Positions 6,256 through 58,789 of a stretch of 64,000 bases of DNA are shown here, in pieces. Where the stretch lies: assembly GCF_000718785.1 (NCBI RefSeq), contig NZ_JOCA01000015.1, positions 1 to 64,000 on the forward strand, given 5' to 3'. Below the pieces are notes generated by a model. It saw nothing but the letters and a program-made list of their open reading frames with translations, was not told the DNA's origin and searched no databases. This DNA comes from Streptomyces sp. NRRL WC-3626 (GTDB lineage Bacteria; Actinomycetota; Actinomycetes; Streptomycetales; Streptomycetaceae). Every line of letters begins with the position of its first letter. Within the stretch, counting starts at the first letter, position 1. The translations under genes and the position numbers were made by a program.

Positions 6256-6326
6256 AGCTCCGGTGCCGTCGGCGCCTTCCAGAACAAGAACTCTGGGGGA
6301 AAGCACCCCACCAAGCCCCACCCTTT

Positions 6327-6357
6327 CCCGCCCGAGGCGTGTCGTCACTCGGGCGGG
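6327..6357 (+). terminator. Hairpin terminator after the ATPase gene
   Basis: Perfect 10-bp stem, CCCGCCCGAG (6327-6336) with its complement at 6348-6357, and an 11-base loop. No U-run. Confidence 0.7.
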
Positions 6358-6433
6358 TGAACATCACCGGCTCAGCTGGATTTTCGATCCCCCAGCACCC
6401 TTACGCTCAGCGCACACCCCCCGAAAAGACTTC

Positions 6434-6469
6434 GGCCCCCGCCGGGACTGGCATCCCGGTGCGAGGGCC
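6434..6469 (+). promoter_or_regulatory. Leader hairpin upstream of the winged-helix gene
   Basis: GGCCCCCGC (6434-6442) pairs with GCGAGGGCC (6461-6469) apart from one mismatch, with an inner CCGGGA/TCCCGG stem. It is followed by CTGACC and then the GAGGAG ribosome site. The paralogous gene at 40269 has a comparable hairpin at 40203-40236 also followed by CTGACC, so the leader looks conserved. Function unknown; attenuation or RNA stability are possibilities. Confidence 0.45.
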
Positions 6470-6497
6470 TGACCACCCAGGAAGAGGAGCTTCCCAA

Positions 6498-35099: not shown

Positions 35100-35212
35100 G
35101 AGACAGGGGCGCGGGGAACTGCGCAAAAAAGGCGGGTCTGGGGGCGCAGCCCCCAGGGACGGGAACGGGAAGGGGCGGCGGGGGCGAAACCCACCACGCC
35201 ACCCCCACCGCC
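35100..35212. repeat. Dispersed intergenic repeat between convergent genes
   Basis: GGGGCGCGGGGAACTGCGC (35106-35124), then an A6 run, then TGGGGGCGCAGCCCCCA (a perfect hairpin), then GGGACGGGAACGGGAAGG. The head is shared with 44945 and 58676. The hairpin is suited to terminate the gene at 34539 or the MFS gene. Confidence 0.7.
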
Positions 35213-44208: not shown

Positions 44209-44564
44209 GCCTAACTCCCCTATTACTGGCCCTTGCACGGATCCGCACTTCGCGGATCCGGGTCAGACCTCACCCCCCAACGGTTGGGGGCGTGCGCCGG
44301 AACGCGTCGACCGCGGCTGAATGTATCTGTCCAACTGCCGTCTGCAACAGGTCAATCGGACGAGAAATCTGGACGACACCGGTCCGGAATGTGGCGAGAA
44401 TTCGCCTGAATTCAGGGCAAGTCGGGCCGGGCAATCGGCGCAAATGCCGCGCAAGGTGCCCGCACTTTGGCTACATCCAGTCGGGCTCGCGGCAGAAATC
44501 AAGGGGTCCCGATCAGTGGATCGGGAGCGCGTTCCCCAACTCTACCGCGCTCAATCCCATGGAA
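44209..44564. other. Long AT-richer region: cspA leader/promoter, no gene seen
   Basis: No coding feature. Two compact inverted repeats lie close to cspA: a 9-bp stem CGGATCCGC/GCGGATCCG (44238-44260) and an 8-1-8 palindrome CCCCCAAC-G-GTTGGGGG (44274-44290). If transcribed, they would structure the 5' untranslated leader, as in cold-shock genes elsewhere. The stretch 44300-44560 is clearly lower in GC than its surroundings and shows no repeat or ORF I trust. Confidence 0.55.
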
Positions 44565-44597
44565 TTGCCCCCTCCGCTTCTCTCACGGAGGGGGCAA
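44565..44597 (-). terminator. Terminator after the sulfur-carrier gene
   Basis: Perfect 12-bp stem TTGCCCCCTCCG (44565-44576) with its complement at 44586-44597 and a nine-base loop, 41 bases beyond the moaD-like stop. On the minus strand the stem ends in AA-rich sequence rather than U. Confidence 0.85.
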
Positions 44598-44638
44598 AGT
44601 CCCAAACGCTCGGTAACCGTCATTACCGAAGGTAATGA

Positions 44639-44914
44639 TCAGCCTCCGGCCACCGCCGGAATGATCGAGATGCCGGCCCCGTCCGGGGTGGCCGTCTCCA
44701 GTCCCTGCTCGAACCGCACGTCGTCGTCGTTGACGTACACGTTCACGAACCGCCGCAGCTTGCCCTGGTCGTCCAGCACCCGGGCGGCGATCCCGGTGTG
44801 GCTCTTCTCCAGATCCGAGATGACCTCGCCGAGGGTGGCCCCCTCGGCGCTCACTTCGGCCTGCCCACCGGTGTACGTGCGCAGAATGGTAGGAATCCGT
44901 ACGGTAACGCTCAC
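44639..44914 (-). CDS. MoaD/ThiS-family sulfur-carrier protein
   Basis: 91 aa beta-grasp protein ending in the required di-glycine (IIPAVAGG), which would be adenylated and converted to a thiocarboxylate. SVTVRIPTILRTYTGGQAEV and FVNVYVNDDDVRFEQGL match CysO-like carriers. It lies 81 bases after the threonine-synthase-family gene on the same strand. The pair thus resembles CysO with its PLP enzyme CysM: the carrier probably donates sulfide to the PLP enzyme next door. No Mec-type protease or activating E1 is in the window. Confidence 0.9.
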   Translation of the reverse strand: MSVTVRIPTILRTYTGGQAEVSAEGATLGEVISDLEKSHTGIAARVLDDQGKLRRFVNVYVNDDDVRFEQGLETATPDGAGISIIPAVAGG

Positions 44915-44944
44915 GACAAAACCTCCGGAAGGAACAGCACCCTG

Positions 44945-44976
44945 GGGGCGCGGGGAACTGCGCGACCAGCCACGGC
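44945..44976. repeat. Dispersed repeat GGGGCGCGGGGAACTGCGCG type
   Basis: A copy of the intergenic repeat also found at 35106 and 58676 (GGGGCGCGGGGAACTGCGCG followed by ACCAGCCACG). It sits between the PLP-enzyme and sulfur-carrier genes without breaking either. Confidence 0.75.
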
Positions 44977-44995
44977 TGACCCGCAGACTGACGAC

Positions 44996-46282
44996 TCAGG
45001 CAAGCCCGGCTGCACGGAACGACTCGAGGCTGGGACGGATCGTCGCGGTCATGCCCGTACCGGCCACCGCGTCCAGCGTCTTGAGGCCATCACCCGTGTT
45101 GAGCACCACAGTGGTCAGAGAAGGATCGAGCGCACCGCTCTCGAGCAGCTTCCTGGTGACTCCCACGGTCACGCCCCCCGCGGTCTCCGCGAAGATCCCC
45201 TCGCTCCGGGCGAGCAACTTGATCGCCTCGACGATCTGCTCGTCGTTCACGTCCTCCACCGCCCCGCCCGTGCGGCGTGCGATGTCCAGGACGTACGGCC
45301 CGTCCGCCGGGTTGCCGATCGCCAGCGACTTGGCGATCGTGTCCGGCTTCTGCGGACGTACGACGTCGTGCCCCGCCTTGTACGCGGTGGAGACCGGTGA
45401 GCACCCCTCGGCCTGCGCGCCGAAGATCCTGTACGGCTTGTCCTCGACCAGACCGAGCCCGATCAGCTCCTGCAGCCCCTTGTCGATCTTCGTGAGCTGC
45501 GAGCCGGACGCGATCGGGACGACGAGCTGGTCGGGCAGCTCCCAGCCCAGCTGCTCGCAGATCTCGTACGCGAGGGTCTTGGAGCCCTCCGCGTAGTACG
45601 GCCGCAGGTTGACGTTGACGAAGCCCCAGCCCTCGCCGGCCGGGTCGCCGATCAGCTCGGAGCAGAAACGGTTCACGTCGTCGTAGTTGCCCTCGATGCC
45701 GACGAGTTCACCGCCGTAGACGGCGGCCATGACGACCTTGCCCTGTTCCAGGTCGTGCGGGATGAACACACAGGACCGGAAGCCGGCGCGGGCCGCGGCG
45801 GCACCGACGGCGCCGGCGAGGTTGCCGGTGGACGAGCAGGACAGGGTGGTGAAGCCGAAGGCGCGGGCGGCCTCGATGGCCTGGGCGACGACGCGGTCCT
45901 TGAAGGAGTGCGTCGGGTTGCCGGAGTCGTCCTTGACGAACAGCCTGCCGGGGTCGACACCCAGCTCACGGGCGAGGTTGTCGGCCTGGACGAGCTTGGT
46001 CCAGCCGGGGTTGATGTTGGGCTTGGTCGCCACGTCCGCCGGGACGGGCAGCAGCGGCGCGTAGCGCCAGATGTTCGCGGGTCCCGCTTCGATCCGCTTG
46101 CGCAGTTCCTCGGTGTCGTGGGCCGAGAAGTCGTAGGCGATCTCCAGCGGGCCGAAACACTCCTCGCAGGCGAAGACGGGGCCGAGCGGGACGCGGTGGC
46201 CGCACTCGCGGCAGGAGAGCGCCGCTGCGGGGCCGAGGTCGACCGCGGAATCGGTGGTGCTTGCAACAGTCTGCACAGCCAT
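44996..46282 (-). CDS. thrC: Threonine-synthase-family PLP enzyme (threonine or homocysteine synthase)
   Basis: 428 aa. An N-terminal zinc ribbon (SCRECGHRVPLG, FACEECFG) precedes a fold-type II PLP domain. The PLP lysine is in NPTHSFKDRVVAQA, and the phosphate-binding SCSSTGNLAGA and GNYDDVN blocks are typical of ThrC, which converts O-phosphohomoserine to threonine. Streptomyces usually carry another thrC with hom and thrB. The SAM riboswitch upstream and the sulfur-carrier gene downstream suggest that this copy instead makes homocysteine from O-phosphohomoserine and thiocarboxylate sulfur. Start ATG 46282; the upstream ATG at 46315 lies inside the riboswitch and is rejected. Confidence 0.85.
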   Translation of the reverse strand: MAVQTVASTTDSAVDLGPAAALSCRECGHRVPLGPVFACEECFGPLEIAYDFSAHDTEELRKRIEAGPANIWRYAPLLPVPADVATKPNINPGWTKLVQADNLARELGVDPGRLFVKDDSGNPTHSFKDRVVAQAIEAARAFGFTTLSCSSTGNLAGAVGAAAARAGFRSCVFIPHDLEQGKVVMAAVYGGELVGIEGNYDDVNRFCSELIGDPAGEGWGFVNVNLRPYYAEGSKTLAYEICEQLGWELPDQLVVPIASGSQLTKIDKGLQELIGLGLVEDKPYRIFGAQAEGCSPVSTAYKAGHDVVRPQKPDTIAKSLAIGNPADGPYVLDIARRTGGAVEDVNDEQIVEAIKLLARSEGIFAETAGGVTVGVTRKLLESGALDPSLTTVVLNTGDGLKTLDAVAGTGMTATIRPSLESFRAAGLA

Positions 46283-46301
46283 GGAGGCGAGGCCCTTTCT
46301 C

Positions 46302-46445
46302 CTCATCTTCCTCACGACGCATCTCGCCGTGAGACGGATTTGGCACCTTCCCTAGCCGGGAGCCTCGCCACGTCTGTGTGACAAGAGCCGGCTGGAGGGT
46401 TGCCGGGGCTTCATCGGGCCGTATCCCTCTGCCCCTCTGGATGAG
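46302..46445 (-). promoter_or_regulatory. SAM-I (S-box) riboswitch
   Basis: Read on the minus strand, P1 is CUCAUC (46440-46445 side) with GAUGAG (46302-46307 side). The core carries the S-box hallmarks AGAGGGA, then CGGCCCGAUGAAGCCCCGGC, AACC, and AAGGUGCCAAAUCC, with a P4 hairpin UCUC-ACGGC-GAGA. The ribosome-site region GAGAAAGGG of the thrC-like gene abuts the 3' strand of P1 and no terminator hairpin is seen, so translational control by S-adenosylmethionine is likely. Confidence 0.88.
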
Positions 46446-46588
46446 CGGTGTTCAGTTGTTGTCCACGCGGTGACCCCGGCATGCGGTGGTCACGGGCGTT
46501 GTTCAAGACTGTAACCGACGGCCTGCAGGGTGGAGAGTGCCCGTCCGAACCGCGAGATGGATCACAGGCCAGTGAGGAGCCCGGGAGC

Positions 46589-58525: not shown

Positions 58526-58789
58526 CCGCAATGCGCGGGCAGTCGAAATCCCGTTTCCCTAACGGGATTTCCCCCCTCGGTCCATAAATTCACCGCGCGC
58601 GACCGCACCGGGCGCAGCCCGGCGCCCACGGGGCGCCGTCAAGCTCGGCAGCCGACGGACGCCGCACGCCCTGAAGGGGCGCGGGGAACTGCGCGACCAG
58701 CCACGACGCACCCGCACCCGCCGAAGGCGCGAACCCACCCCCACGGGGGGCGCCGGGGCCCGGGGTAACCCCCGGGGGGACCGGCGGGG
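58526..58789. repeat. Intergenic repeats between convergent genes
   Basis: No gene is seen. AAATCCCGTTTCCCTAACGG then GATTT (58548-58570) has an inverted repeat (AAATCCCGTT/AACGGGATTT) that could terminate the flavin reductase gene. GGGCGCAGCCCGGCGCCCA forms small hairpins. At 58676-58707 lies the GGGGCGCGGGGAACTGCGCG dispersed repeat, and at 58744-58780 a run of GGGG/CCCC inversions. Confidence 0.65.

Follow-up and report, generated by a model that had tools for sequence, protein, structure and literature searches.

The locus studied here, on the minus strand of a 64,000-nucleotide window of a Streptomyces genome (the window being the whole stretch of DNA that was analysed), is very probably the Streptomyces metM-metO operon, a SAM-switched route that makes homocysteine from O-phosphohomoserine and the sulfur of MetO. 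The operon reading is correct, but its core is already known and was described in 2024. According to the passages of PMC12172450 that deal with this system, Hasebe et al. 2024 (AEM 90:e01247-24) identified in Streptomyces the homocysteine synthase MetM, which converts O-phosphohomoserine to homocysteine; in the same account, metM of S. albulus has a SAM riboswitch upstream, MetM prevents methionine auxotrophy in that organism, and metO is named as the relative of a sulfur-carrier gene. The inference of the sequence-only reading, a homocysteine-forming route, is sound and was in print by 2024. The arrangement is met again in our window, with a ThrC-family enzyme behind a SAM riboswitch and a ThiS/MoaD-type gene downstream; set against the description of S. 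albulus in those passages, the locus is alike in genus, enzyme family, sulfur-carrier gene and upstream riboswitch, and no difference was seen. A limited literature search met no further work on MetM or MetO. The parts of the operon are as follows.

46300..46447, minus strand: SAM-I (S-box) riboswitch aptamer (RF00162, 77.8 bits, full-length model).
46293..46300, minus strand: likely Shine-Dalgarno sequence AGAAAGGG, read from the sequence and abutting the aptamer at its 3' end.
44996..46282, minus strand: metM, a threonine-synthase-family PLP enzyme of 428 aa, predicted homocysteine synthase (PF00291, TIGR00260 and orthology).
44639..44914 including the stop codon, minus strand: metO, a ThiS/MoaD-type sulfur carrier of 91 aa with a C-terminal GG (PF02597, 60.1 bits).
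44565..44597, minus strand: putative terminator, a 13-bp hairpin without a U run, from the fold of 44560-44640.

The sequence-only reading had seen in the same stretch a well-formed S-box element, a ThrC-family PLP enzyme behind it, a MoaD/ThiS-type protein ending in GG and a closing terminator on the minus strand, and its description and coordinates of the parts proved right: the Rfam check returned RF00162 over its full length, the enzyme is matched by both PF00291 and TIGR00260, the carrier is matched by PF02597 and ends in PAVAGG, and a strong 13-bp hairpin closes the unit.

The aptamer aligns with model positions 1-108 of 108 and scores well above the gathering score (44.4 bits) at an E-value of 1.1e-17, and it is the single match of a covariance-model search across the 7.9 Mb genome. 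A chance riboswitch was considered and rejected, given the full-length match, the E-value and the conserved pairing with metM described below. The 3' strand of its P1 helix reads GATGAG, ending two bases before 46300, and P1 is paired in the minimum-energy fold. The best anti-Shine-Dalgarno pairing of the leader (-9.2 kcal/mol) begins within the aptamer. metM is likely to start with the ATG at 46282 and runs to a stop codon whose last base is 44996, while a longer frame from the GTG at 46315 would begin inside the aptamer. A promoter scan did not find a sigma-70-like site.

The pairing was followed through an even sample of 118 genomes from the class, our own included. The enzyme was matched at E ≤ 1e-60 in 88 of them, and 87 matches, all with at least 60 % identity, were kept as metM (the one excluded, in G007, has 38 % identity and one stop). 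RF00162 lies upstream of metM in 85 of these 87, and in the two misses (G067 and G015) the 5' end of metM is cut by a contig end; the riboswitch-metM pairing is nearly universal in the class as sampled, which is a modest addition to the known route. RF00162 was also matched elsewhere in the class in other gene contexts (L246, L247, L248 and L249). The frames preceded by such elements are presumably a 2-oxoglutarate oxygenase-like protein (G031), a peroxiredoxin-like protein (G116) and, in G025 and G065, what we take to be ABC transporter ATPases with a substrate-binding protein. For S. lividans, the part of the 2021 reannotation concerned with riboswitches (PMC8079986) has a table, said to be validated by RNA-seq for 21 of its 22 elements, in which RF00162 precedes a transcript of two genes that carried the label threonine biosynthesis at the time.

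Leaders could be placed by script in 81 of the 85 cases (G033, G108, G074 and G115 were left out), one of them, in G100, having no assigned start codon and an odd riboswitch match 275 nt upstream. In 80 of the 81, the start codon of metM stands 6-18 nt (median 13) past the 3' end of the aptamer, a range that is partly a choice, because, of the in-frame codons lying 4-60 nt past the aptamer, the one with the best Shine-Dalgarno pairing was taken as the start. GATGAG is kept as the last helix strand in 79 of the 81 leaders and is then followed by a purine-rich, Shine-Dalgarno-like sequence; in 77 of 80 the first paired base falls within the aptamer, a count of little weight, given how short a stretch was scanned. 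Such short spacing suggests that metM may be controlled at the level of translation. A ribosome initiating at this distance would cover P1, and direct occlusion would therefore be the simplest mechanism; a limited literature search met no published statement on occlusion of the metM ribosome site by P1.

As regards the enzyme, MetM is matched by PF00291 at 226.4 bits and by the threonine synthase model TIGR00260 at 268.5 bits (cut-off 167.1). The latter score would suit a true threonine synthase whose expression SAM governs so that O-phosphohomoserine is shared out between the threonine and methionine branches; this model, however, cannot tell MetM from ThrC. The same reading gains from a cyanobacterial homologue, that of M. 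aeruginosa, which according to the relevant section of PMC12172450 is 51.6 % identical to S. albulus MetM, is without the riboswitch, makes threonine from O-phosphohomoserine in vitro, deaminates threonine, and, supplied with sulfide, yielded nothing but an unidentified peak close to methionine. Owing to this threonine synthase activity, family membership alone cannot settle the product. The function predicted for MetM here rests on orthology to the S. albulus enzyme as presented in PMC12172450, and that orthology is inferred from genus-wide conservation and from the arrangement. In a scan of named genomes the S. albulus locus was not among the best 80 of 588 relatives, which comprised 79 titled Streptomyces and one 'Actinobacteria bacterium OV320'.

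On alignment of 82 full-length MetM with 30 actinomycete ThrC, it was found that K128, N154 and T396 are common to all sequences of both groups. The ThrC positions T89, S156, R161 and N189 are each invariant (30/30), and all four are changed in every MetM (82/82), where the counterparts are L155 (82/82), N225 (79, with T in 3), Y230 (82/82) and S259 (82/82). We take these four ThrC positions to contact the substrate phosphate, as in the T. thermophilus enzyme. Further, C24, C27, C39, C42 and C294 are present in 82/82 MetM. At the position of the invariant C294, ThrC has Ala (26/30) or Ser (4/30), and a role of this cysteine in sulfur handling is possible. The fingerprint parts the two groups and is no proof of the reaction. 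Compared directly with the canonical ThrC of its own genome, MetM belongs to the same family, shares the PLP lysine and is 37 % identical over 343 residues, whereas it has the changed pocket columns and an extra four-cysteine N-terminus, and metM has a SAM riboswitch and lacks hom and thrB as neighbours.

A genome search located this second, canonical thrC on contig C16, between genes that we take from their sequences to be hom and thrB. With a threonine synthase already in place in a hom-thrC-thrB cluster and four ThrC columns altered in all 82 MetM, the reading of MetM as a true threonine synthase was rejected and is very improbable; it would also leave the sulfur carrier unexplained and a plant-like cystathionine gamma-synthase as the only recognised route from homoserine to homocysteine. 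MetX and MetA are the usual homoserine-acylating enzymes. Profile searches of our genome gave one partial match of 22.1 bits for MetX, none at E ≤ 1e-30, and no match for MetA. The threshold of E ≤ 1e-30 was adopted for MetX because no genome, either of the 118 or of 14 controls, scored as high as the TIGR01392 cut-off of 500 bits; in these controls the models recovered MetX in 7/14 at E ≤ 1e-30 and MetA in 8/14. The sequence-only reading had inferred that O-phosphohomoserine and carrier-bound sulfur are joined to homocysteine, and had looked to a second thrC and to a comparison of active sites with true ThrC: the former was found beside hom and thrB, so that metM is not the sole thrC-like gene, the latter gave the differing pocket columns, and together with the lack of a convincing MetX, the lack of MetA and the published function of MetM (as reported in PMC12172450) they support that inference.

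Three strong Cys_Met_Meta_PP proteins (504, 307 and 269 bits; five of nine matches above cut-off) are encoded in the genome, and transsulfuration enzymes are therefore present. Homocysteine might accordingly be made mainly by a plant-like cystathionine gamma-synthase (contig C9, L011) from O-phosphohomoserine, a substrate compatible with its sequence, and cysteine, with MetM serving another use. We regard this as highly unlikely, since it gives no reason for the SAM riboswitch, for the carrier or for their conserved pairing, and since MetM prevents methionine auxotrophy in S. albulus (in the account of PMC12172450). Across the 118 genomes, MetM and MetX occur together in 37, MetM only in 50, MetX only in 25 and neither in 6 (odds ratio 0.18, Fisher p 3e-4, the genomes being related and not independent). 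As MetX is found in 37 of the 87 metM genomes, the MetM route is not always the sole one; among the six genomes with neither, G081 has MetA and G076 a metM start that is cut off.

Among PDB entries, MetO is matched best by 3dwg_C (E 8.4e-32), which carries the deposition name '9.5 kDa culture filtrate antigen cfp10A' and which we take to be M. tuberculosis CysO, and by 4n6e_B, a 'ThiS/MoaD family protein'. The spacer between metM and metO is 81 nt long. It holds a 24-base Streptomyces-type intergenic repeat (44945-44968, minus strand; none expected by chance), of which further copies lie at 58676-58699 (minus) and, with 3 mismatches, at 35106-35129 (minus); among the 80 named loci taken as the best of 588 relatives, 10 have its 23-base core close after metM. 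Elsewhere in the window, the Streptomyces small RNA scr4677 (RF02673) was matched at 217.6 bits (6256-6496, plus strand). The 81-nt stretch 44560-44640 behind metO has a folding z of -6.0, with none of 200 shuffles equally stable; a simple terminator scan did not list its hairpin at 44565-44597, which has no U run. Beyond it, on the same strand, lie frames that we read as a small cold-shock protein and GroEL. The C-terminus of the 57 adjacent MetO proteins is GG in 43, GGC in 12, GGCA in one and GGA in one (L025, L028 and L031 are examples of metO loci in other genomes); a residue past GG would need to be cleaved off or put to use before a thiocarboxylate could form.

Four ThiS-family matches were found in the genome. 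One, on contig C19, lies together with a gene of cysM type and with the sole Prok-JAB match of the genome, the three making up a cysM-cysO-mec cluster; this CysO is 58 % identical to MetO. It ends in GGMA. MetM could be a homocysteine synthase that in the cell takes its sulfur from free sulfide or from a different carrier, CysO for example, MetO being a helper or a specialised donor. The closeness of the two carriers within one genome is in keeping with this, as is the survey: of the 83 loci that could be evaluated, 57 carry metO after metM and 26 show none in the 0.8-1.6 kb that were fetched (the survey took in 86 of the 87 loci, G067 being left out, and G004, G058 and G070 end before the metO position), so that a dedicated carrier is not always needed. 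Against it, metO adjoins metM in 8/8 surveyed genomes of the genus, and thiocarboxylated MetO is reportedly the sulfur donor in the 2024 work of Hasebe and colleagues. We therefore consider another donor unlikely in Streptomyces, though less so than the two alternatives above, and keep to MetO as the source of sulfur for MetM in this operon.

Among the genomes without an adjacent metO, 25 of 26 were searched for carriers (G015, with no metO within 900 bp, was left out of search and tree). A carrier match at E ≤ 1e-4 was obtained in 24 of the 25, the exception being the incomplete assembly G074; in 24/24 the best match adjoins cysM and mec, and in 19 of these genomes it is the sole carrier match. 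A diverged or more distant carrier gene in these genomes could be missed. MetX is absent in 12 of the 25, and MetA was found in none of those 12, several assemblies being incomplete. On a MetM tree that includes three unlabelled ThrC outgroup rows, presence and absence of metO require 6 changes, of which at least 4 are forced by well-supported branches; six may be one too many, because G095, without metO, sits on a long branch near the ThrC rows. With CysO beside cysM and mec as the closest carrier, CysO or sulfide is the likely donor in metO-less genomes, which suggests that these lineages may share the carrier with the cysteine route. There is precedent for carriers borrowed between pathways in Amycolatopsis, as described in part of PMC4784017. 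Tentatively, and with the balance tilted slightly against it, we propose that MetO has disappeared repeatedly in several actinomycete lineages, with CysO supplying MetM with sulfur in its place, and that SAM holds back the methionine branch alone, by way of a P1 helix that directly abuts and covers the ribosome-binding region.

The CysM-CysO-Mec system of M. tuberculosis, whose route by way of a carrier thiocarboxylate is treated in the relevant part of PMC3227635, likewise joins a PLP enzyme, a phosphorylated amino-acid substrate and a GG-ending carrier. The present operon, in contrast, has an enzyme of ThrC rather than CysM type, with another substrate and product, and no Mec peptidase, the Prok-JAB and cysM-like genes being on contig C19. 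In Wolinella succinogenes (HcyS/MetY, from the Begley laboratory), a carrier thiocarboxylate reportedly gives the sulfur for homocysteine, there with a MetY-type enzyme and acylated homoserine.

In the metM-metO route as we propose it, MetO would be charged as a C-terminal thiocarboxylate, presumably by a MoeZ-type enzyme; MetM would take O-phosphohomoserine from the threonine branch, eliminate phosphate and add the sulfur of MetO at the gamma carbon, giving homocysteine, the precursor of methionine and SAM. At high SAM, the leader would bind it, P1 would be stabilised and the adjoining ribosome-binding region of metM hidden, so that the route would shut off, probably at translation.

Start spacing, pocket columns and the absence of metO are offered as additions, on a literature search that was not full, and the repeated absence of metO is a modest addition to a known route. 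If the proposed sharing is true, one carrier supplies both cysteine and homocysteine synthesis; the missing carrier beside metM in several lineages is directly testable. A gene annotated as 'threonine synthase' that follows a SAM riboswitch probably bears the wrong name. The route explains how methionine and SAM, a supply point for many methylated natural products, can be made in Streptomyces that have neither MetX nor MetA.
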